Below are positions 1 to 48,064 of a DNA stretch of 48,064 nt, in pieces. The first letter of the stretch is position 1. Each line of letters opens with the position of its first letter. Source of the DNA: Cytophagaceae bacterium (lineage in GTDB: Bacteria > Bacteroidota > Bacteroidia > Cytophagales > Flexibacteraceae); contig JAIXYP010000023.1 in NCBI GenBank assembly GCA_027490155.1, positions 1-48,064 of the forward strand, in the 5' to 3' direction. The notes below the pieces were generated by a model. That model searched no databases. It was not told the DNA's origin and saw only the letters and a program-made list of their open reading frames with translations. The position numbers and the translations under genes were made by a program.

Positions 1-1730
1 AAGACCACCTGGCCAAGGGCATTAACTACCTCAACGGATTGGACTTTGGTCCAGATTTCGGCGGGGGCTTTGATTTTGGTTAGTTGGCTTGCTGGGTTGG
101 GGTAGAGGGTGATTTGGGAAAGGAGTTGGGCAGTTGAAAGATGAGTTAGATTGTAATAATAATTACGAACACATACTCCATCGAAGGCCCTAGCCATATA
201 GTTTCCGTTTCGCTGAGTAACTAATCGGCAACTAGTATCGTTTTGAAGTAAAACGCCATCTAAGTACCACTGATATTTACTTGTGTTGTAACACCTCGCA
301 ATCAAGGTGTCATCAATAGCCCTAAGGCTTTCACTTGTGCTGTCTTTATTTAGCGTAATTTTAAATAGATATGATCTATTTCCGAAAACAGGAAAATTGT
401 TATCTCTAACAAAAATTGTTTTCTTAATTTCTAAACTGGGACCATTGAAAGTAGTATCTGACCAACTTAATGTCGTACTATTGTTAAACCCTATAGATGC
501 ATTGAAAAAAGTTTGATTTGACTGTGGAATGAGGTCATCTCTGCCATCCAAAAAGTTCAATAATGATCCAATATTTGGATCATTAAATTTCAAATAAATA
601 CTGCGATTTCTGTTGCATGCACTAACATTGATCGCAATTGTTCCAGAATCTTCAATAGCAATACGTTGGATGTAATTGTTCATCCGTTTTGTTTCACTAG
701 GTGAAAAGTAGGGTAGTCGATTCCCATCTAATACATAAACGAAAACTATAAATTCCCTTCCGATTTCGCCTGCCAATACCATGTTGCCATTCAGATTTCG
801 TCTATATTCTTTGACGCGACAAAAAATCGAGAACTGGTTGTCTGGGGCAGGAAAGCGTTGAAAACCTCCGAACTTAGAAGGGCGAAAAGAAAATACTCCT
901 GTGGAGTTATCGAACTGTACATCTGGAATAGCATTGCTATTATTAGCGACAGGTTGAAAGGATGCAATAGGAAAATTCGAGCTATAGCTTCCTGGACCAT
1001 ATCTACCTGAGGTATTTGGGATAACAGTCGTATCTACAACAGCACCCCCAGTATAATTTGCATAGGTAGCGTTGGTGTTGCAGGTAGTCCTTGGTGCTTC
1101 TAAGGTATAGACTAAAGAGTCACCATCATAATCGAAAGCACGCATTGAATGCGAGTACTGTTGATAGAAAGGGACACGTGGACATGGCGGGATAGCTTGA
1201 TTAAACACAGGTGAATTGTTCTGGGCAAAATCTAGATTATTCAGAATAGCCTCAAGATAAACGGTACTAGGGCTACCAAAGGCGATATTTGCAGATCGTG
1301 GCCTATTACCATCTGAATAGACAAAGCACCAATCAGCTCTTCTAGAGGGTAGTGTTATATTAAAATTAAAGGTATGAACTAACACACTTGTTGGCAATAT
1401 AGGATATGATGGATTAACTCCACTTGTACATCTATAATATGCAGGATAATTTTGGTGATAAATCTGCTGGGTATCAACGCGCAAAACCGGGATAGGAGCA
1501 ACCGTTACCATTGAGGGACCACATCGTCCTGCTCTAACTTCAATCTTTTCAGTACCTAATCTGTTGTCAGCACAGTCCGTAAACAACCTTAAATATACTC
1601 GATAGGTTAAATTTCTTTGATGAATATAGATAATATCTCCCCCTAAAATAGTGCCGCCATAACTCTTAAATGAGGAAGCAAGAGAAATAAATAACAAAAT
1701 ACTAAGAACAAACTGTGAAAGATTCTTCAT
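1..1730 (-). CDS. T9SS type A sorting domain surface protein (3' end cut by window edge)
   Basis: An open frame runs without a stop from an ATG at 1730 to the left edge (576 codons seen, perhaps 40 missing). The start MKNLSQFVLSILLFISLASS is a typical signal peptide. The mature N-terminus (GGDIIYIH, LTYRVYLRLF, DC) resembles the GGEI-Y-x-DC opening of many Bacteroidota secreted proteins of unknown function. Near the C-terminus an Ig-like segment (YQWYLDGVLL) precedes the sorting domain (ITLYPNPASQ, VEVVNALGQVVL). It is a paralog of the gene just upstream on the same strand (1755-3623), 24 bases away, so the two are probably one operon. Its codons look clearly more AT-rich than the paralog's, except in the sorting domain. 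Expected location is the cell surface after T9SS export. The passenger's function is unknown. Confidence 0.85.
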   Translation of the reverse strand, partial: MKNLSQFVLSILLFISLASSFKSYGGTILGGDIIYIHQRNLTYRVYLRLFTDCADNRLGTEKIEVRAGRCGPSMVTVAPIPVLRVDTQQIYHQNYPAYYRCTSGVNPSYPILPTSVLVHTFNFNITLPSRRADWCFVYSDGNRPRSANIAFGSPSTVYLEAILNNLDFAQNNSPVFNQAIPPCPRVPFYQQYSHSMRAFDYDGDSLVYTLEAPRTTCNTNATYANYTGGAVVDTTVIPNTSGRYGPGSYSSNFPIASFQPVANNSNAIPDVQFDNSTGVFSFRPSKFGGFQRFPAPDNQFSIFCRVKEYRRNLNGNMVLAGEIGREFIVFVYVLDGNRLPYFSPSETKRMNNYIQRIAIEDSGTIAINVSACNRNRSIYLKFNDPNIGSLLNFLDGRDDLIPQSNQTFFNASIGFNNSTTLSWSDTTFNGPSLEIKKTIFVRDNNFPVFGNRSYLFKITLNKDSTSESLRAIDDTLIARCYNTSKYQWYLDGVLLQNDTSCRLVTQRNGNYMARAFDGVCVRNYYYNLTHLSTAQLLSQITLYPNPASQLTKIKAPAEIWTKVQSVEVVNALGQVV

Positions 1731-1754
1731 GATTAGGTTTTTTTTGAAAGGTTA

Positions 1755-3623
1755 TTACTCCACCACCAACACCTTTCCAACACCTAGCCCACCAAAGCGC
1801 AGCCAATACTGCCCACTTTTTAGGCCAGTTAAGGGCAAAGTCATTTGGCCATCGTCATCTTGTTGCGCTGGCTGGCTCAAGACCACTTGTCCAAGGGCGT
1901 TAACTACCTCAACTGATTGGACTTTGGCCCAGATTTCGGCAGGGGCTTTGATTTTGGTGTGTTGGCTGGCTGGGTTGGGGTATAGGGTGATGGACGCTTG
2001 AAGCTGAGTAGCTGAAAGTTGGGTGATCACAGAATAGAAGCCACTAGTAACGCAATTTTGGTCTGTGACCCGGACTCTATATTTGCCGTCCTGACTAAAT
2101 AGAATGCTAGAATTGGTTGCATTTGGGATGGGAGCCCCATTGAGAAACCATTGATATAGTGCGCCTGGTATGTTAGGTGTGGTCAGTTGATTCCCGACGG
2201 CTGTAACTTGTGCACCGGCACTATCCCCATCAACCAATAGTCTTAGGAGGTAGGATCGGTATCCTACCATCGGAATATAGTCATCTGTGATTCTGATTGG
2301 TAACTCAAAACTGGCCTTGGTAGAGCCAGTCAATGGCCCTAGAGACAGGGACAGCTGTGCACCAATGGTATTCTGGCCCACCATACTGATGTTATTGACA
2401 AATCCCGGCCGTTGCCGACTGTCATACCAGATGGAAACATTGCTGCCGACATTGGGGTCTCGGAACGGAACTAAAACGGTTTGGCTATTACAACCCGCAA
2501 CTCGCACCTCAATAGTTGATGAGTCTAGCAGCAACACCCGAGCCAAAGGATTAAGGTTGGTTGCTCTACCGTTATCAAGCAAAGGTGGGCGGTTAGCACC
2601 ACAATCCCGCACGGTTACAAAGAACTCTTGCATGGTTTCGCCTACCAATACGGCAGGCCCTGTACCCAAGCGTCGGTATTCTTGCACCTTGACAGCCATT
2701 GCATACCGATTGATGCCATCAAAACGATTGGCTGTAGGAGTGTGGAACCTAGGTCTGAAGGACAATCCACCTGTTGACCTATCAAGCCGAAACGTATTCA
2801 CGATACGGGACGGATTCGGGATCAGATCAAAGGACTGGATCGGGTTGGTAGCCGAATAGGTCCCGGCTGGTAGCTGACCCAATAGATTGGGTACTTGGTT
2901 GGTATCAATATAAAACCGGGCCGGATAGTTGGCATAGGTCGTTCTGGTCGAACAGGTTAACATCGGTTCGAACATCGAATAGGCCAAGGAGTCCCCATCA
3001 GGGTCAACTGCTGCAAAAGACCGATAATAGGGTTGGTCTACACATATATATGGGTTGGTATAGTCGACAGCATTGATTTGGGCCGAAGTATTACTCAGGA
3101 CGTCAAGATTATTGAGCCTAGCCTCTAAATAATGATTACCGTTGCTGCCATTGCCCAAATTGCCTATGTCGGCCCTGGCGCCACTTGCATAGCTGAAACA
3201 CCAATCCGCCCGACGGCTAGGCAGGGTTACTGTCCAGATGTAAGTTGCCATCCTAAAATTGGTGCGGGTCTCAGGATACTGTGGATTAATTGCACTGGTG
3301 CAGACAAATCGGCTTGGATAGCTTGGTGGATTGTTTGATTGTGTATCTAGCCTCGCCGGACTGACGAGTGGTGTCCTCATAACCACATTGCCACATCGAC
3401 CTTCGGATACGTCAATGCTCATTGACCCCATATTGATGCCTGCACAATCATAATACAGGAACAGGGTCACCCGATAGGTCAGGCCTGAGATGTGGGTGTA
3501 GGTGATCGATCCGCCGCTGTCATAGGCGGCATACAATTTGGGCGTTCCGATCAGGAATAACGTGAGTATTAGTATCCCTAACGGTATCGCCTGTTTCGTT
3601 CTAAATAATGACCTCATATCCAT
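1755..3623 (-). CDS. T9SS type A sorting domain surface protein, tandem paralog
   Basis: This 622-residue protein has a signal peptide (about residues 1-32, ending KLYAA), the GGSITYTHISGLTYRV N-terminal motif followed by YYDC, a long beta-rich passenger with many cysteines, an Ig-like segment (ALYQWFLNGAPIP, about 490-500), and a C-terminal T9SS type A sorting domain starting at ITLYPNPASQ and ending GKVLVVE. It matches the partial downstream paralog along its length, including LPSRRADWCF, YDGDSL/DPDGDSL and VKEYRR/VQEYRR. The start could also be the ATG two codons later. A perfect two-part inverted repeat sits directly before the start codon (3624-3661). The family is common in gliding and surface-rich Bacteroidota, with no proven role; adhesion is only a guess. 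Confidence 0.88.
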   Translation of the reverse strand: MDMRSLFRTKQAIPLGILILTLFLIGTPKLYAAYDSGGSITYTHISGLTYRVTLFLYYDCAGINMGSMSIDVSEGRCGNVVMRTPLVSPARLDTQSNNPPSYPSRFVCTSAINPQYPETRTNFRMATYIWTVTLPSRRADWCFSYASGARADIGNLGNGSNGNHYLEARLNNLDVLSNTSAQINAVDYTNPYICVDQPYYRSFAAVDPDGDSLAYSMFEPMLTCSTRTTYANYPARFYIDTNQVPNLLGQLPAGTYSATNPIQSFDLIPNPSRIVNTFRLDRSTGGLSFRPRFHTPTANRFDGINRYAMAVKVQEYRRLGTGPAVLVGETMQEFFVTVRDCGANRPPLLDNGRATNLNPLARVLLLDSSTIEVRVAGCNSQTVLVPFRDPNVGSNVSIWYDSRQRPGFVNNISMVGQNTIGAQLSLSLGPLTGSTKASFELPIRITDDYIPMVGYRSYLLRLLVDGDSAGAQVTAVGNQLTTPNIPGALYQWFLNGAPIPNATNSSILFSQDGKYRVRVTDQNCVTSGFYSVITQLSATQLQASITLYPNPASQHTKIKAPAEIWAKVQSVEVVNALGQVVLSQPAQQDDDGQMTLPLTGLKSGQYWLRFGGLGVGKVLVVE

Positions 3624-3761: not shown

Positions 3762-4559
3762 CTACTGCGCCCACATCCAGTCAAGCCAAAGTGGGTTGCT
3801 GTAGGCTGCCACCCAGCTGTCATGTTGGACGCCAGGGAGCTCAGTATAGACAATCTTGCCACCTCTGTCACGTAGGGCATCAACCAGCCGGCGGCTGAAC
3901 CCAACCTTGACGGCCTTATCTGCATCACCATGGAACAACCATAAGGGTGTTTTGCCCACCCTATTGTAAAGGTCAGGATGGACACCGCCACAAACAGGTA
4001 GCGCTGCCTTGAAAATTTTTGGGTAAAAGGCGACAAACTCAAGCGTACCAAAGCCACCCATTGACAGGCCGCTAATGTATTGGTGTTTGCTGTCAATTTT
4101 ATACACCTGCCCGAGCTGCTGCAATAGTCCGTTGACCATCTGGAGGGGGCGGGTAGGTTGCTTGGGCATCTGGAAGGAGGCTGAGTCGCGTGCAAAAACT
4201 AGGTGGGACCAAGACTTGCCTTTTGGGCATTGAGGTATCACGTAGATGAATGGATACTTGCGCCTGACTGCACCATTGTTGACCAGCGGCAAAAAGTGTT
4301 TGAGCTGGGCTTGGTTGTCCATCCCTCGCTCGCCAGAACCATGCAGCAAAACCATCAGTGGATAGGTGTTGCCTGGTTGGAAGTTATCAGGAAGCACCAA
4401 CTGATAGGGTAGGGTGTCAGTGAGGCCTGTTTTGTTGTCCTTCAGGACATAGGCACCTGATTTAAACTCGATCGGTAGCTGATTTTCGGACTGTGCCATG
4501 GCCAAAGGGGCTATCAGGGCGAACAAATAAACCAAGAGGGTGCTTTTGATGTGGGTCAT
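3762..4559 (-). CDS. Secreted alpha/beta-hydrolase (esterase/dienelactone hydrolase-like)
   Basis: A 265-residue protein with a signal peptide (cleavage near LAMAQ, residue 23). The alpha/beta-hydrolase fold is shown by an oxyanion motif LLHGSGERG (71-79), nucleophile elbow GLSMGG (Ser166), acid motif HGDAD (Asp214) and catalytic His246 in VQHDSW. This arrangement fits the phospholipase/carboxylesterase and feruloyl-esterase-like group often annotated as prolyl oligopeptidase family or putative esterase. No T9SS sorting domain follows, so it is probably periplasmic. It ends 138 bases before the T9SS paralog pair and is divergent from the PorE-like gene. The substrate cannot be told from sequence. 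Confidence 0.85.
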   Translation of the reverse strand: MTHIKSTLLVYLFALIAPLAMAQSENQLPIEFKSGAYVLKDNKTGLTDTLPYQLVLPDNFQPGNTYPLMVLLHGSGERGMDNQAQLKHFLPLVNNGAVRRKYPFIYVIPQCPKGKSWSHLVFARDSASFQMPKQPTRPLQMVNGLLQQLGQVYKIDSKHQYISGLSMGGFGTLEFVAFYPKIFKAALPVCGGVHPDLYNRVGKTPLWLFHGDADKAVKVGFSRRLVDALRDRGGKIVYTELPGVQHDSWVAAYSNPLWLDWMWAQ

Positions 4560-33455: not shown

Positions 33456-35414
33456 TTACTGTTTGGTGATCCGTTGGAGGAATTGTTTGTTCTGGCCAAT
33501 GACCCGAACTTGGTAGGTACCTGCGGTAAGCCCAGATAAATTGAGTTGCAGCTCGCCCTCTTGGATGCCGCCAACAGATTGGCTCAGAACAACTTGACCT
33601 ACAGTGTTGAGTATTTCAACGGCGGTATACGTTTGGTTGTTTGGCAACTTGATATTAAGGGTGCCTGTCGTTGGGTTTGGATAAACAAAAACTTGTTGGT
33701 TGACCAAGCGAATTGGGGTAGAAACTGGCACTGTATTCTGGACCGAAGCAAAGTCAATAGCTAGGTTGTTGCCACCTCGGCTTTTGGCCACAAACCCGAT
33801 GCGGATGATTTGGTTCCGATAGGCGGAAAGGTCAACACCAAAAGTTTTCCAGGTATACGGAGTTACGTCTGGGTTGTAACGGGAAAATCTACCAACTGTT
33901 GCGTAATTCTGGCCATCCAAGGCGACCTGGATGAGGACTGAGTCTTGAAAAGTTGGCCAGTCGGAATCTTGGTTCATGCTGAAGGTAAGCCAAGCAGGCT
34001 CGTTGGTGGGCCAGTTGTTAAGGTTGAGGCATGGGGTGCTGGCACGTGCAATACTTCCTCTCGTTGAGGTTTGGAACGACGGGAAGAACAAAAAGCCAGG
34101 TCCTTGTTGGGTCCGGAACGGCGTGCTGAGTGAGTTGCCTGGGTCAAAGAACAGGGAGTCAACCGTCCATTGGTTGGTGCCTGCCAGAAGTTCGCCAAAC
34201 CAGCCCACCGGGATATTTTGTGAGGTTCTACCACCAAAATCAGTCGTCCAACTAGGGTAGATGGAGCTGTTGCCAGTGATGGAACTGAAAATGATGTTTT
34301 TGGTCAGGGTGTCGTTGCGCCGATTGGCAGGAGCTTCACCTGCAAGCTGGGCAAATACCTGGATGCTGAATACAGATCCGCTCGAAAGCGTGATTGGGGT
34401 AGGGAATGTCAACGTTGCATTTTCGCGGGCCTGAAGTGCTGGGCTGAAAGTAAATGTCTGCTGCACAGGGGCCCCGCCGTTTAGACGATAAGTGACGGGC
34501 AGGGAAGTAACTGGGTCGGAGCCAAAATTGCGGATGCTGAACTTGACAGAGTCAGTCACCGAAGCAATGCACAAGGAGCCTGGAACATTGGCTGGCTTCA
34601 GGATGTTGGTTACCGCAACGTCAATTGCAGCTGGTGGCCCAGTCAGCCAACTGAAGGAAAGCCCAGATGGTATGATAGTCCCGCTATTGATCCGGATGTC
34701 CTCGGTGGCATAAGTCGAGGCATTGGTGTTGGTGAACGATAAACCAGTACGTGCGTTGATGTCAGTGGTGTCACTGCCGCGAAGGCCGACCTGAGCGCCA
34801 CCATCGTTGGCAGTAGGTAACGACATGTTGCCATAGTTAACGGTGATGCCGTTATTGCTTTCGGTCAAGACCAGTTGGAAGTTAAGGTTGTCTGTCGCTG
34901 ATGAACCAGAATAACGTTCGTACTGGGCCCATTGAAGGGTAAAGGTCCTGTTAGGCGCCGAGCCTGTGCGGTGGGCTGTAAGACGACCATTGGTACGAGA
35001 GTGCAGGTCCATGTTGAAGGCTGCGATCATTGGGCCAAAATTGTAGCCCCTGATCGGAGATTCGAAGTTATAGAGGGCACTACCGCCAGAGGTTCCGAAG
35101 CCGCCAATACTGCTGCCGCCAGCGCTGAATGTAATGCTGTTTCCGGATAGGAATGCTATAAATCCATTATTGCCCACACCAACAGTATCATAGTCCCTAC
35201 CGTTATACCTGAACGGAAATCCAATCAGGACGTTGCTGTAATACTGGTCATCATCGTTGGCCGCATTAAGCTGGGTACCACCCGTTAGCGGGGTATAGGT
35301 GCTAATACTTTGGGTGAACTGATAGTCACGTTGCACCAGGTTCTGGGCAATGCCTAAGTTGCCGGCCAGAAATAGCATGATTGTGAGGACGGACTTGAGT
35401 ATTGTTTTCTTCAT
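33456..35414 (-). CDS. T9SS type A sorting domain protein, second tandem pair (copy 1)
   Basis: 652 residues. A signal peptide (ending GNLGIAQ, about 1-24) precedes an N-terminal domain with YYSNVLIGFPFRYNG and VGVGNNGFIAF. A CARDB-like domain follows (about 260-375; AIDVAVTNIL, SVKFSIRNFGSD), then a MAM/choice-of-anchor-like domain (about 380-575; TDFGGRTSQNIPVGWFGELL, VSLIQVALDG-type strand) and the sorting domain (VYPNPTTGTLNIKLPNN to the end, RITKQ). It is a paralog of the upstream gene (35620-37569) in the same order. Passenger binding partner unknown. A TATTTTTG -7 box lies about 65 bases upstream. Confidence 0.9.
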   Translation of the reverse strand: MKKTILKSVLTIMLFLAGNLGIAQNLVQRDYQFTQSISTYTPLTGGTQLNAANDDDQYYSNVLIGFPFRYNGRDYDTVGVGNNGFIAFLSGNSITFSAGGSSIGGFGTSGGSALYNFESPIRGYNFGPMIAAFNMDLHSRTNGRLTAHRTGSAPNRTFTLQWAQYERYSGSSATDNLNFQLVLTESNNGITVNYGNMSLPTANDGGAQVGLRGSDTTDINARTGLSFTNTNASTYATEDIRINSGTIIPSGLSFSWLTGPPAAIDVAVTNILKPANVPGSLCIASVTDSVKFSIRNFGSDPVTSLPVTYRLNGGAPVQQTFTFSPALQARENATLTFPTPITLSSGSVFSIQVFAQLAGEAPANRRNDTLTKNIIFSSITGNSSIYPSWTTDFGGRTSQNIPVGWFGELLAGTNQWTVDSLFFDPGNSLSTPFRTQQGPGFLFFPSFQTSTRGSIARASTPCLNLNNWPTNEPAWLTFSMNQDSDWPTFQDSVLIQVALDGQNYATVGRFSRYNPDVTPYTWKTFGVDLSAYRNQIIRIGFVAKSRGGNNLAIDFASVQNTVPVSTPIRLVNQQVFVYPNPTTGTLNIKLPNNQTYTAVEILNTVGQVVLSQSVGGIQEGELQLNLSGLTAGTYQVRVIGQNKQFLQRITKQ

Positions 35415-35619: not shown

Positions 35620-37569
35620 TTATTGCTTGGTGATCCGTTGTTGGTATTGAACCTTGTTGCCCAAGACCCGAACTTGATATGCGCCTTTTGGCAGGCTGCT
35701 AAGATCAAGCTGAATGTTGCCTTGGCTGATACCACTTGCAAGGTCTTCTAGGACGATCTGTCCGACCATATTAAGGACCTCAACTTTGCTATACTGTGTG
35801 TTGGTTGGTAGGCTAATGTTGAGCAAACCAGTTGTTGGGTTTGGATAAACATCGACCGCACGTGTGCTGATGTTGTTAGCAAGCCCAACCGGTACAGTAT
35901 TCTGGACTCTGGCATAGTCAATTCCGAGGTTGTTGCCACCCTTGCTAATACCAACAAATGCTACGCGGATGACTTGGTTGCGATAAGCAGAAAGGTCAAC
36001 CCCAAAAGTGCTCCATTCCCAGGTGCTCAGGCTCGCATCATAACGACCAAAACCACCCACATTAGTGAAGTTCTGACCATTGACAGCCACCTGTACCAAT
36101 ACTGAGTCTGGACGTCCTGGTGTTTCGCCGTCTTGATTCATGTCGAAAACAAACCAAATGGGCTCGTTACTTGGCCAGTTATTCAGATTCAGACATTGGG
36201 TGCTAACTCTAGTCCGAGCGCCCGAAGTTGTATTGACCACGGATGGGAATACCAGCACCCCAGGTCCTTGGCGGGTAGCCAATGGTAAGCTCAATGAGGA
36301 GCCTGGGTCAAAAATTGCACTGTCAACACGCCAAGAAAGGTTTCCTGAAAGGTTTTCGCCGATCCAGCCAGTAGGATAGGTGGGCGAGGTCCGGCCATCA
36401 AAATCAGAGGACCAGAGCGGGTATATACTGGTGCTGCCCGAAAAGCCGTTGAAAGTCACTGTTTTTGACAAAGTGTCATTCCGCTGCGTTGCAGGAAGTT
36501 CTCCTGCCAGAGAACTGTAAACACGTACAGTTGTGCTTCCGCCTGCGGTTAGGGAAATAGCACTAGAGAATGTTAAGGTTGCACCTGAGCGTGATGCTAG
36601 TGGTGGATTAAATGTGAATGTTTCGGTAATTGGGCTTCCACCATTTACAGTGTAGGAAACTGGCACAGAGCTAACAGGATTCGTGCCGTTGTTAAACAGG
36701 TTGAATTTGACAGAGTCAGTAGCTGAAGAAATACAAGAGGTACCACCAACAGAAACTGGGCGCAAAACACCAGTGATCGAAACATCGATTGCTGCAGGAG
36801 GTGATGGAGACCAAGTGAAAAGGGTGCCAGAAGCAGGACCGGCACTTGCTGAGGTTAAGATACCATCGCGTGCATAGGTGTTTTGGCTGATCTGGGACCA
36901 CGTGCCCGATTGGCTCAATACGTCGGTAGTGTCATTACCACGCAGGCCAGACTGTGCACTTGCGTCCGCGCCTGTATAGGTTACAGAGCCGATATGAACA
37001 CTCAAATCGCCAGATCCCTCTGAAAGTATGATCTGGAAGTTGATGTTATCGCCAGTGTGGGTTGCGCCATACTTGCGGTAGTCTTTCCACTGGAAAACAG
37101 CTTTGCGGTTTGGGGCGCTTCCAGTCCGTGTCAGAGAAAGGACAGAGCCAGCGCCAACTGCTACATCACAAAGCAAGTCATAGTTAAGGCCAGCGACCAT
37201 TGGACCATAGCCATATCCTGCTGTTGCATTGTTAAAGTTGCTTAGGGAAATGCCAGTTGGGATAGAAGCACTAAGGATAGAGCTGCCAGTACCACTAGAT
37301 GTAATGTTATTGGTCGTAAAGGCCAAGAATCCGTTGTTTGCAACAGCAACTTTGCTGTAGGTCACGCCATTGTACGTGAAATCAAACCCGATGCTGATGT
37401 TTGGCCATACGTTATCATCTCCCGCTGTGGTGATGACCGTATCGCCACGCTCCTCTTGATACGGAACGTTGCCTTGGACAAAACGGTAGTCAGCTTTGAC
37501 GGTGTTTTGTGCATTGACTCCGAAGCCAAGGGCTAGGATCAGTGCAGCTGAAAGTAAGTACTGTTTCAT
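35620..37569 (-). CDS. T9SS type A sorting domain protein, second tandem pair (copy 2)
   Basis: About 649 residues from the ATG at 37569 (MKQYLLSAALILALGFGVNAQ); an earlier in-frame ATG at 37581 adds four residues. Same domain order as copy 1: VAVANNGFLAFTT, CARDB-like region (AIDVSITGVL, SVKFNLFNNG), MAM-like region (SDFDGRTSPTYPTGWIGE, VSLVQVAVNG-type strand), then VYPNPTTGLLNISLP to RITKQ. The two copies are about half identical across most of their length, so they arose by tandem duplication. Cell-surface location by T9SS is expected. Confidence 0.9.
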   Translation of the reverse strand: MKQYLLSAALILALGFGVNAQNTVKADYRFVQGNVPYQEERGDTVITTAGDDNVWPNISIGFDFTYNGVTYSKVAVANNGFLAFTTNNITSSGTGSSILSASIPTGISLSNFNNATAGYGYGPMVAGLNYDLLCDVAVGAGSVLSLTRTGSAPNRKAVFQWKDYRKYGATHTGDNINFQIILSEGSGDLSVHIGSVTYTGADASAQSGLRGNDTTDVLSQSGTWSQISQNTYARDGILTSASAGPASGTLFTWSPSPPAAIDVSITGVLRPVSVGGTSCISSATDSVKFNLFNNGTNPVSSVPVSYTVNGGSPITETFTFNPPLASRSGATLTFSSAISLTAGGSTTVRVYSSLAGELPATQRNDTLSKTVTFNGFSGSTSIYPLWSSDFDGRTSPTYPTGWIGENLSGNLSWRVDSAIFDPGSSLSLPLATRQGPGVLVFPSVVNTTSGARTRVSTQCLNLNNWPSNEPIWFVFDMNQDGETPGRPDSVLVQVAVNGQNFTNVGGFGRYDASLSTWEWSTFGVDLSAYRNQVIRVAFVGISKGGNNLGIDYARVQNTVPVGLANNISTRAVDVYPNPTTGLLNISLPTNTQYSKVEVLNMVGQIVLEDLASGISQGNIQLDLSSLPKGAYQVRVLGNKVQYQQRITKQ

Positions 37570-38056
37570 AGATCTGAACATGGGATGTCAGGGAAAGAGT
37601 TCTCAAGTGACAAGCTTTGAGATAGAAAACCTTAACATCGGTGTAAAATTAGCAATTTTTTAAACAACTGGATTGGCATTTGGGGCAATTTTATTTGCCT
37701 AAAGTACCTAAATACCTTTATGGATTGCCAAATCGGCATTTTATTGCCAAATCATGACCTCTCAATCGCTCGGATCTAGCTTCCTCACTAGGCAAGGCTA
37801 GTGGCCCAATCATGGTAACAGGTAGGATGGTTGGCAAGAGGTAATAAGGTTGAGTTAGATTCTCGGCGTAATTCGAAATCGCCTGCCAGAATACGTTGAG
37901 GCAAATAAGTTTGTCACAGGACTAGATTTTTTTGAGCGATTAATCGTGTTTGCATGTAACTAGTGCAATCAAATTGTCGGTCTGTTATCCAATCGTATTG
38001 ACCACAGGTTGCCTAACTTATCAAGCTTACCCTATCCCCCCCAAGGGGCATTGTCT
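37570..38056. other. Divergent region between T9SS copy 2 and oxyR
   Basis: No gene supported. It holds a direct repeat ATTGCCAAATC at 37724-37734 and 37743-37753, spaced 19 bases start to start, within a wider patch rich in TTGCC/GGCAA; a similar GATTGGCATTTG lies at 37671. This may be an operator for the divergent genes, for example OxyR or another regulator, but no binding motif was matched. Confidence 0.35.
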
Positions 38057-45431: not shown

Positions 45432-48064
45432 CTATTGTTTGACCAGCTTGCCTATTGTTTGGTCGGCACCAGTCTTGAGACGATACTGATACAATCCAGC
45501 AGGTAGTTGGTTGAGATCAATGGTATTGATCGTGGTTCCAGACTGAACTAGCTTTCCATCTGCACCAAAAATCTCATATTCAATGGTACCATCGGCTCCC
45601 AAGATCATGACTTGGTCCTTAGCAGGATTCGGGAACAAGGTTAACTGCAACTTGTTCATGATAGGCAAATGCACCACCTGACTGAGCGTTGCCTTACCAT
45701 CCAGATCCACTTGGCGCAAACGATAGTAAGCAGATTGTTGGTGACGATCTTCGAATTGGTATTGGCTGAGGGTCGAAGTATTTCCGTTACCCGCCACAAA
45801 CCCAATTGAGTCAAATTGCTGTCCGTTGGTGCTGCGCTCGATGACGAAACCTGCGTTGTCCTGCTCCTGTGCCGTGATCCATTGTAGTTTGACAAATCCA
45901 TTAATACGAGAGCCAACAAAGCTCAACCAAGTTACAGGCAGTGGGTTATTGTCTCCGCTTGCTGTCCAGTCGCTAAAGCTGTTGGTATTGACCCATAGGC
46001 CATAAGATCCTACTGAAGCAGATAGGTTTTGTTTAGGTCCGACCTTTGTCCAGCTAGTTCCGTTATCTGGGCGACGCCAGACTTGAACACTTGCCATATT
46101 GTTGTTGTTCCGTGCCGATGGCAACCAGCTTAGTTTAATGCTGCGGCCAGAGGTTGGCTGACGATGAGCCCTGATTGACCATGTATAGCCGATACCAGAG
46201 AATGCGCCAAATGTAGCAGTTGCCTCACGACGCTCGACAAAAACGGTATCTAGGTCATCAGTGCCTGCTGCCAGCTGAATGCCCAATATATCTAATGAGC
46301 CCTGACCAACTTGGCGACCCATTGCACGTACACGTCCGATTATTCGGCTTGTTGCATTTTCGATTGGTTTGCTTGCAGTTGAAGCCAGATTCACCAGATG
46401 TGAACCTGCAACAATATTACCATTGGTCATCGTCAGGCTGTTACAGACATCCATGCGATCGCTAAGGACGACATGGTTACCATTGTTAATAACAAGGTTG
46501 CCAACTGCTACTTTGCCAATGGACTGCATCGAGCCACCGACAAGTTCTAGGGTACTTGCGCATCCTCCAGTAATAGTACCTGCACCCAACTGATTACCAT
46601 ACAGGGTGAGTTTATTGCTGCCAGTTATTGGCAATGTGATACCAGATGGGATGGTAATGTTATTGACAACTGCATTGCCGCCTACAACTGGCAATACAGC
46701 CGCATTGCTCCTGATCACAACGTTACTGTTTGTGGTCGGGATGCCACCGCACCAGTTACTAGGGTCGATCCAGTTATTGGAGTTGCCGAGCCAAGTACCA
46801 GCTGCGATGCTAGATACCATAACACTTGCGCTTGTCTGAACGCAGCCAGCAGGTGTGGTGGCTGTAACAGAATAGGTGTTGGTGCCATCAAGCACCACAA
46901 CCGAATTGCCCATTGTTCCGTTTGACCACAGATAGGTACAGCCGACGCAATTGGCTGTATTGGTGACCGTGATCGGGGTTCCTAGGCACGATTCTGACCC
47001 ATTAGCCATACTTAGCAATGGTTGTATCTGTGGATTGACAACCACTGTTACACTCTGGGTATTGGTGCAGCTGTTCGCCGTAGTCACGTAACTATAGACA
47101 ACAGAAACTGGTGCCGTAGTTGTATTGATCAGCGTTTCGTTCGGATTGCTGATTTGCGCTACAGTTACAGCCGCATTGCTGATTCCAGCTACTGCCGCAC
47201 GTGTCCAAGTAAAGGTGGCTCCTGCGGTGGCAGAAGTTGGACTGTAGGTAAAGGCTGTGCTGCTGCAGATTGCTGTTGGTGTTAGGGTGCTGCTAAGCGA
47301 AGGGGTTGGGTTGACCCGTACCGTGACGTTTTGCGTATTGGTGCAGCTGTTGGCAGTCAGGGTATAGATATAGACCACATCGATTGGTGCAGTGGTGTTG
47401 TTAACCAAGGCCCCAGTAGGGTTGGTGGTTTGTGCTGTCGTGATCCCTGCATTGCCTCCGATAGCTGCACGGGTCCAAGTAAACGTAGTACCGGCAATTG
47501 CAGATGTTGGCGTGTAGCTAAAGTTACCTCCTGCACATATAGCAGTTGGCGTTAGGGTGCTGCTGAGCGTTGGCCTAGGATTCACCACCACTGTTACACT
47601 CTGGGTATTGTTGCAGCTGTTCGCCGTAGTCACGTAAGTGTATACCACCGAAACAGGAGCGGTAGTTGTATTGATCAGCGTTTCGTTCGGATTGCTGGTT
47701 TGAGCTACCGATACTGCGGCATTGCTGATACCTGCTACTGCTACCCTAGTCCAAGTGAATGTTGCACCTGCTGTTGCAGAAGTTGGACTGTAGGTAAAGG
47801 CTGTGTTGCTACAAATGGCTGTTGGTGTTAGGGTGCTGCTAAGCGAAGGGGTTGGGTTGACCCGTACCGTGACGTTTTGCGTATTGGTGCAGCTGTTGGC
47901 AGTCAGGGTATAGACATATACAACGTTGATCGCCGATGTGGTTGCATTAGTTAGGACCTCACTTGGGTTAGTGGTCTGTCCGACTGTTACTGCCGCATTG
48001 CTAATGCCCGGTACTGTTGCTCTGGTCCAGGTAAATGTGGTACCTGCTGTTAGGCTAGTTGGCG
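45432..48064 (-). CDS. Repeat-rich T9SS type A adhesin (5' end cut by window edge)
   Basis: At least 877 codons; the frame stays open to the right edge, so the true start is outside. From the N-terminal side: PKD/HYR-like repeats of 90-92 residues (consensus STLTPTAIC, TFTWTRA, TTNPTE, VYxYTLTANSCTNTQNVTV), a further Ig-like domain (NGSESCLGTPITVTNTANC), a long stretch of short beta-rich turns like a parallel beta-helix (GNQLGAGTITGG, NGNIVAGSHLVN), another module with FVIERSTNGQQFDSIG and YYRLRQVDLDGKATLS, and the sorting domain (LTLFPNPAKDQVMIL to GKLVKQ). Long repeat-rich proteins of this type are usually adhesins or surface fibres. Confidence 0.88.
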   Translation of the reverse strand, partial: PTSLTAGTTFTWTRATVPGISNAAVTVGQTTNPSEVLTNATTSAINVVYVYTLTANSCTNTQNVTVRVNPTPSLSSTLTPTAICSNTAFTYSPTSATAGATFTWTRVAVAGISNAAVSVAQTSNPNETLINTTTAPVSVVYTYVTTANSCNNTQSVTVVVNPRPTLSSTLTPTAICAGGNFSYTPTSAIAGTTFTWTRAAIGGNAGITTAQTTNPTGALVNNTTAPIDVVYIYTLTANSCTNTQNVTVRVNPTPSLSSTLTPTAICSSTAFTYSPTSATAGATFTWTRAAVAGISNAAVTVAQISNPNETLINTTTAPVSVVYSYVTTANSCTNTQSVTVVVNPQIQPLLSMANGSESCLGTPITVTNTANCVGCTYLWSNGTMGNSVVVLDGTNTYSVTATTPAGCVQTSASVMVSSIAAGTWLGNSNNWIDPSNWCGGIPTTNSNVVIRSNAAVLPVVGGNAVVNNITIPSGITLPITGSNKLTLYGNQLGAGTITGGCASTLELVGGSMQSIGKVAVGNLVINNGNHVVLSDRMDVCNSLTMTNGNIVAGSHLVNLASTASKPIENATSRIIGRVRAMGRQVGQGSLDILGIQLAAGTDDLDTVFVERREATATFGAFSGIGYTWSIRAHRQPTSGRSIKLSWLPSARNNNNMASVQVWRRPDNGTSWTKVGPKQNLSASVGSYGLWVNTNSFSDWTASGDNNPLPVTWLSFVGSRINGFVKLQWITAQEQDNAGFVIERSTNGQQFDSIGFVAGNGNTSTLSQYQFEDRHQQSAYYRLRQVDLDGKATLSQVVHLPIMNKLQLTLFPNPAKDQVMILGADGTIEYEIFGADGKLVQSGTTINTIDLNQLPAGLYQYRLKTGADQTIGKLVKQ
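47036..48064 (-). repeat. PKD-like repeats with 546-bp higher-order period
   Basis: Single repeats are 270 or 276 bp (90 or 92 residues). They alternate between two kinds (TANSCTNTQNVTVRV with TAICSSTAFTY, and TANSCNNTQSVTVVV with TAICAGGNFSY), so the nearly identical unit is two repeats, 546 bp: the block at 47281 recurs at 47827 and the one at 47041 recurs at 47587 with few base changes. The array continues past the right edge. Confidence 0.85.

Follow-up and report, generated by a model that had tools for sequence, protein, structure and literature searches.

The window analyzed in this work comprises 48,064 nucleotides and corresponds to the entire contig C18 (JAIXYP010000023.1) of the Cytophagaceae genome G000 (GCA_027490155.1), an assembly of 3.99 Mb in 69 contigs. 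At its start lie two neighboring minus-strand genes, termed A and B, that encode putative cargo proteins of the type IX secretion system (T9SS), and the subject of this study is the C-terminal sorting domain (CTD) with which both proteins end; the part of the protein before the CTD is referred to as the passenger. Gene B (1755..3623) is complete and codes for 622 amino acids, with the passenger encoded by positions 1992-3623 and a type A CTD of 78 residues by positions 1758..1991. This domain scored above the cut-offs of PF18962 (33.5 bits, cut-off 27) and TIGR04183 (29.1 bits, cut-off 23). Gene A (3..1730) is an open frame of 576 amino acids that reaches the contig edge, where C18 stops inside the CTD. 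Its passenger occupies positions from about 114 to 1730, the first 37 residues of its type A CTD are encoded by positions 1..113, and the 12 codons before the CTD (114..149) form the linker. The stop of gene B and the start of gene A are separated by 24 bases (1731..1754), which suggests that both genes would be read as one transcript. The N termini resemble signal peptides as judged by eye, not with a predictor, and at an E value of 0.01 no Pfam or NCBIfam model matched either passenger. The two passengers are homologous, with 35% identity over the aligned part.

The remainder of the CTD of gene A was found on a second contig, C47 (71065-71185, minus strand). The first 96 bases of the window (1..96) are identical to the last 96 bases of C47 (71186-71281), C47 continues gene A in frame up to the end of the CTD, and its match to the sorting domain of gene A spans positions 71065-71280. 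As cut off in the window, gene A reached only 16.6 bits in the PF18962/TIGR04183 profile search, which is under the cut-off, whereas the completed CTD reached 37.1 bits for PF18962 and 31.4 bits for TIGR04183, above the same cut-offs of 27 and 23.

Near-identical sorting domains in otherwise unlike neighbors had been predicted from the first lines of the sequence, and this was confirmed by a recount: 103 of the 113 bases at window positions 1-113 are identical to those at 1879-1991, corresponding to 35 of 37 residues instead of the 36 of 38 given originally. Over the full CTD, with A completed from C47, 210 of 234 nucleotides and 74 of 78 residues are identical. Per block of 20 codons, nucleotide identity is 0.83-0.93 within the CTD, 0.56 in the 20 codons preceding it and 0.25-0.55 in seven blocks further upstream, and the sharp drop before the domain is hence as described. 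The same holds for the difference in base composition, since the GC content of the passengers is 0.38 for A and 0.49 for B, whereas that of the CTD is 0.53 in both. The passenger of A, with a GC content at third codon positions (GC3) of 0.30, has the second lowest GC and the tied lowest GC3 among 140 cargo passengers compared.

A clear trough emerges when synonymous divergence is followed along the two genes, the check that the original prediction had proposed. According to Nei-Gojobori counts, the proportion of synonymous differences (pS) is 0.835 in the passenger, which is saturated, and 0.35 in the CTD (corrected distance dS 0.47); the equal divergence of both parts that would have spoken against the prediction was not observed. 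The corresponding nonsynonymous proportions (pN) are 0.454 and about 0.025 (corrected distance dN 0.026), and the CTD dN/dS since copying is about 0.05. Of the codons that specify the same residue in both proteins, 191 are in the passenger, where 126 differ, and 74 are in the CTD, where 19 do (P=3.7e-9). None of 10000 permutations of codon columns yielded an equally similar window of 78 codons, which excludes chance and shows that the trough is real and located on the CTD. Low synonymous divergence was thus confined to a tract inside otherwise saturated paralogs, as is expected from gene conversion. Such a pattern of a saturated passenger and a fresh CTD is not left by the duplication of a whole gene, and gene A as a simple tandem duplicate of B was therefore rejected.

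Of the 79 relatives returned, G001 is the only one in the genus of G000, and it provides information on the history of the locus. G001 contains an ortholog of gene B, termed B' (L055:5015-6880), that is 85% identical to B and adjoins the same gene of 265 amino acids (L055:4079-4876; window 3762..4559, minus strand), which serves as synteny anchor. A search of G001 with gene A matched only B' and a third paralog, C, and did not detect A. Directly after the stop of B', G001 carries the sequence that in G000 lies on C47 behind gene A; from the last stop base onward, the two differ at 9 of 74 positions. A version of the locus without gene A therefore exists in the G001 assembly. The 3' flank contains a hairpin that folds better than shuffled sequences (z -2.12); it was not listed in a terminator scan and is accordingly termed hairpin flank only.

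Comparison of A, B, and B' revealed that gene A is a mosaic. In the passenger, 677 sites unite B and B', 64 A and B, and 60 A and B'. In the linker, by contrast, 11 sites unite A and B', 2 B and B', and 1 A and B, and the differences per 36 sites amount to 6 for A-B', 16 for A-B, and 15 for B-B'; the linker of A is thus like that of B' and unlike that of B. In the CTD, 28 sites unite A and B, 12 B and B', and 7 A and B', and A and B differ at 24 nucleotides, as compared to 40 and 45 differences to the ortholog. The shift in site patterns is significant between CTD and passenger (P=3e-19) and between linker and CTD (P=2e-5). Both flanks of the shared segment in gene A, the linker and the 3' flank, are hence B'-like and enclose a B-like CTD, which is the arrangement of orthologous flanks typical of gene conversion and gives the segment the appearance of a conversion tract. 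The dS of the A/B CTD (0.47) is similar to that between the CTDs of B and B' (0.53), which implies that the event is old and the copy not fresh; the description of the domain as nearly fixed was for this reason too strong. The A/B CTDs appear to have been homogenized near or after the split of G000 and G001, long after the passengers had parted, although the timing is the less certain part of this statement. A further observation concerns the passengers of B and B', for which dS in sliding windows is 0.09-0.56 up to alignment codon 360 and 0.97-1.6 in codons 360-560, a jump that suggests another candidate recombination breakpoint inside the gene.

Links between unlike passengers and like sorting domains were also found elsewhere in G000. 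The survey was based on 149 of the best 150 PF18962 matches listed, a list that does not include the CTD of A itself, and compared 159 within-genome pairs with homologous passengers among 141 genes. Five pairs, including A/B, have a CTD pS of at most 0.37, and the next lowest value is 0.54. These are C47_59431/C4_21895 (passenger pS 0.76, CTD pS 0.19), C53_36266/C7_70526 (0.68 and 0.22), C68_12293/C68_13840 (0.61 and 0.37), A/B itself (0.82 and 0.36 in the alignment of this survey), and C17_86828/C44_6052 (0.48 and 0.20), for which the trough is gradual and the evidence weak. The comparison with paralogs elsewhere that had been called for thus places A/B among a small group. Of the near pairs, 2 of 6 were homogenized, as compared to 3 of 153 far pairs, which indicates that adjacency may help and is not required; a restriction of the process to tandem neighbors was rejected on the basis of the 3 far pairs. 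In two triples, those around C68 and C43_15345, passenger and CTD identify different closest pairs (bootstrap 0.997 vs 0.867 and 0.992 vs 0.951, respectively). In G001, for which 87 of the 144 PF18962 matches listed were sampled, 4 of 58 pairs have a CTD pS of at most 0.43, and 3 of these have a passenger pS of at least 0.6.

Homogenized genes also differ from others in the step in GC3 from passenger to CTD. The CTD is the GC-richer part, and the median of this step is 0.136 in the 10 homogenized genes of G000 and 0.011 in the other 131 (P 0.005), and in G001 it is 0.16 in 6 homogenized genes and 0.025 in 73 others (P 0.011). This step could be due to AT-rich imported passengers or to GC-biased conversion. 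At third positions, the GC content of homogenized CTDs is slightly higher, a difference short of significance (P 0.053 and 0.098). A different kind of tag is present in paralog C (G000:C15:55622-58015; L092:4849-7242), the third member of the A/B passenger family. Its CTD matches best the type B model TIGR04131, with 34.9 bits, 0.1 under the cut-off of 35. A type B-like CTD on this protein implies that tag and passenger had become separated earlier in the A/B passenger family.

Two further genomes of the order were found to contain comparable pairs. In G006, which belongs to the same family, 47 of the 126 CTDs listed were examined and the CTDs of 8 pairs are alike at the DNA level; in G038, from another family of the same order, examination of 42 of the 95 CTDs listed revealed 19 such pairs. 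As these samples were chosen by score and tandem position, they show recurrence and not frequency. The G006 tandem pair C13:79424/C13:81281 combines a passenger pN of 0.454 with a CTD pS of 0.05. Identity is 94-100% per 20 codons inside the domain, only 2 of 90 bases differ in the 30 codons preceding it, and the tract ends at the stop. The G038 tandem pair C3:274813/C3:277465 (passenger pN 0.437, CTD pS 0.24) shares a tract, about 144 bases long and with 2 mismatches, that extends from approximately 11 codons upstream of the CTD to its middle, after which identity falls to 73-78%. The tract and the domain have the same edge in A/B, whereas the tract starts at least 30 codons upstream in G006 and ends inside the domain in G038; selection acting on the domain would not readily explain the latter. 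In a search of 395 genomes of the phylum with gene A at an E value of 1e-15, in which the best 3 candidates per genome were scored, only G000 itself and G038 (28-32% identity) were matched; in these genomes plus G000 and G001, the nearest relatives of A are B and C.

Whether sorting domains are more constrained than passengers can be judged from orthologs. Of 62 reciprocal best passenger pairs between G000 and G001, 58 were usable and 50 had at least 75% identity. In these 50 pairs the median pN is 0.041 for the passenger and 0.044 for the CTD (P 0.06), and the CTD is hence not lower, contrary to what strong purifying selection on the domain predicts. The median pS is 0.45 for the passenger and 0.39 for the CTD. 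A general synonymous constraint on CTDs was rejected as the cause of the trough, since it is mild in orthologs and the median CTD/passenger pS ratio of paralogs is 0.99. Two ortholog pairs stand apart, with similar passengers and unlike sorting domains: G000:C7:102700/G001:C48:9910 (passengers 82% identical, CTD pN 0.455) and G000:C36:122549/G001:C11:2938 (75%, CTD pN 0.417). In each case, one of the two species may have had its tag replaced.

Taken together, the explanation favored here for A/B and similar pairs, with a probability of about 0.8, is that cargo genes recombine with each other over short tracts at their sorting domains. Directly observed are the trough in synonymous divergence, the mosaic of site patterns, the recurrence among further pairs and genera, and the locus without gene A in G001; what we infer from them is the route by non-reciprocal conversion, its direction, and that these repeats served for the loss or import of the A unit. 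According to this reading, the passengers of two cargo paralogs would diverge past the ability to pair, and the sorting-domain segment of approximately 230 bp would be left as the final region with enough similarity for homologous recombination, the only place where gene conversion, a copy-paste process, or crossing-over could persist. In A/B, the domain would have been homogenized near or after the split from G001, with the linker and the 3' flank of A left untouched. The transfer would have been non-reciprocal and from B to A, because the immediate flanks of A, and not those of B, are B'-like, and ordinary purifying selection would have acted on the CTD after the transfer. Crossing-over between the two 3' ends could have removed the A unit from G001; alternatively, G000 could have acquired it when a foreign passenger was joined to a linker, a tag, and a 3' flank that were all native. 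The base composition of the A passenger leans towards import, whereas its nearest relatives in the searches are B and C, and the passenger tree leaves its place unsettled: support in this tree for joining A with B is no higher than 87/85, and two alternative placements likewise pass the test (P 0.23 and 0.20). The idea that the passenger diversifies in place is consequently unproven, as A was not found in G001, its passenger is AT-rich, and import is possible.

Several results weigh against the favored explanation. The joined gene A rests on a contig overlap of 96 bp and not on reads, and the G001 assembly is 94% complete in 390 contigs, which means that gene A may be present elsewhere in the organism. 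Most paralog pairs of G000 (154 of 159) have no trough in the CTD. The window itself contains a second tandem cargo pair (33456..35414 and 35620..37581, minus strand) that can be regarded as an internal control, and here the passenger pS is 0.75, the CTD pS 0.68, and the CTD pN 0.30, with no homogenization. The coincidence of the A/B tract with the domain would equally result from selection on the domain. In orthologs, the CTD pS is below that of the passenger in 37 of 50 pairs (P 0.0003), implying that a small share of the trough is general, and the lowest ortholog CTD/passenger pS ratio, 0.33, is below the 0.44 of A/B; the ratio alone is thus insufficient, and the case rests on the mosaic and on the saturation of the passengers. 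As concerns timing, the CTD dS of A/B is barely below that of B and its ortholog, which makes a date after the split weak. A and B form the closest CTD pair with a bootstrap of 0.99 for all sites but 0.81 for third positions only, the support in the CTD tree is 86/85, and the approximately unbiased test retains both B+B' (P 0.17) and A+B' (P 0.31).

Among the alternatives, the capture of a module in a single event overlaps with the favored explanation, of which it may be seen as a special case, as it also invokes recombination at the tag. According to this possible but doubtful scenario, the G000 lineage received, at the 3' end of gene B, an AT-rich passenger of foreign origin; A thereby took over the native linker, CTD, and flank as its end, B retained a second copy of the CTD, and the two copies drifted apart by 10%, with no need for later conversion. 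The failure to find A in G001, where the flank seen behind A comes immediately after B', is consistent with this scenario, as are the match of the linker and flank of A to B', the low GC and GC3 of its passenger, and the larger GC3 step of homogenized genes in both species. However, it leaves unexplained why the linker of B is unlike those of both A (16/36) and B' (15/36), and why the G038 tract halts inside the CTD, and no outside donor emerged from the 395 genomes under the search settings given above.

The original prediction had left the choice between gene conversion and strong selection; recombination of the CTD is supported, whereas strong selection as the cause is not. That purifying selection alone kept an old shared sorting domain alike while the passengers diverged is very improbable. 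The low CTD dN of 0.026 next to a dS of 0.47 does indicate that selection has acted since the copies parted, and in A/B the boundaries of domain and tract coincide. Yet synonymous divergence in the CTD is low too, ortholog CTDs are no more constrained than their passengers, and paralog C bears a different sorting domain on a related passenger. Furthermore, the CTDs of other, equally diverged paralogs are unlike: the median CTD pN of the 147 G000 pairs whose passenger pN is 0.35 or more is 0.50, with A/B (0.026) and C47_59431/C4_21895 (0.019) the only ones below 0.27. Selection alone was rejected on these grounds. An assembly artefact, in which the end of gene A would be a chimera with the CTD of B, is the least credible of all explanations. 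The contig does end inside a repeat, and the domain of A is split over two contigs, but 24 of 234 sites distinguish the copy of A from that of B, far more than sequencing error would give, the overlap with C47 is exact over its 96 bases, the flank behind the CTD of A on C47 is that of the orthologous locus in G001, and similar patterns are present within single large contigs of G006 and G038.

Recombination at sorting domains, if it occurs as proposed, has a number of implications. If tags are re-copied, trees of sorting domains need not follow those of the cargo proteins, similar CTDs do not imply that whole proteins share their descent, and proteins newly joined to a working local tag could be recruited as cargo. 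Matches to this kind of tag ranged from 95 to at least 150 per genome in the four genomes scanned. Tentatively, the sorting domain may be seen as a recombination handle through which units of passenger plus CTD are gained, lost, and re-tagged, odd foreign passengers receive a native tag, and tandem arrays expand or shrink. With a junction at the edge of linker and CTD, and not having been found in G001, the A unit might be one such cassette. It is a prediction of recombination between tags that whole cargo units are lost. The process may also account for some assembly breaks, and the break of the contig inside the CTD of A could reflect the presence of cells with and without the A unit.

A number of additional observations were made on sorting domains and contig ends. 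The CTDs of G000:C26:1870 and G000:C32:1-457 (C26_1870/C32_20; L115, L125) are 97.6% identical over 165 bases and diverge at the stop. C32 begins inside the end of this gene, and the passengers of this pair are thus not comparable; here, too, the CTD repeat may have broken the assembly. The G001 paralogs G001:C104:2279 and G001:C256:4817 (L221, L217) have a CTD pS of 0.02 and a passenger pS of 0.42, and each adjoins a member of another paralog pair on its own contig, which may point to a larger duplicated segment. At the other end of the window, a repeat-rich gene (47915-48064) matches six other places in the genome with 71-78% identity (C44, C12, C6, and C18 itself), and an exact contig overlap like that at the window start was sought at this end and not found.

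The A/B CTDs are in themselves ordinary T9SS type A sorting domains (PF18962/TIGR04183, Por_Secre_tail), above the model cut-offs and located at the protein terminus as in known cargo; what is unusual is their sharing between unlike passengers. In the literature searched, which mostly excluded subscription papers and was covered through titles and the beginnings of abstracts, no report was found in which T9SS sorting domains are described as subject to gene conversion or concerted evolution. Gene conversion between paralogs is a well-known mechanism; what seems new are the target, a sorting domain, and its recurrence across cargo families. In PMC7323717, the term concerted evolution occurs only once, in the title of a reference. 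Surface proteins of Porphyromonas gingivalis undergo domain rearrangement and allelic exchange (PMC5266723), and they resemble the present case in being T9SS cargo of a Bacteroidota species with modular recombination and a conserved CTD of approximately 80 amino acids on proteins of the gingipain family. The exchange reported there affects modules with adhesin and catalytic roles, as well as alleles of different strains, and conversion of the CTD is not described in the accessible part. Cryophage carries variable T9SS cargo genes on a phage (PMC7468147), which likewise have type A sorting domains, but the variation there is between phage genomes. Polymorphic toxin systems (PMC3482391), in which C-terminal toxin cassettes are exchanged, also combine a constant part with a part that is replaced through recombination, whereas in the cargo proteins studied here the constant part is C-terminal and the passengers have no Pfam or NCBIfam match. 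The mammalian receptors TLR1 and TLR6 are an example of paralog gene conversion in tandem (PMC2077338). Paralog conversion and the A/B case have in common a short tract of high identity with low synonymous divergence and sharp edges, often between tandem neighbors; elsewhere the converted segment is a receptor or antigen domain, whereas here it is a secretion signal, in which a constant part is homogenized and no variants are created.

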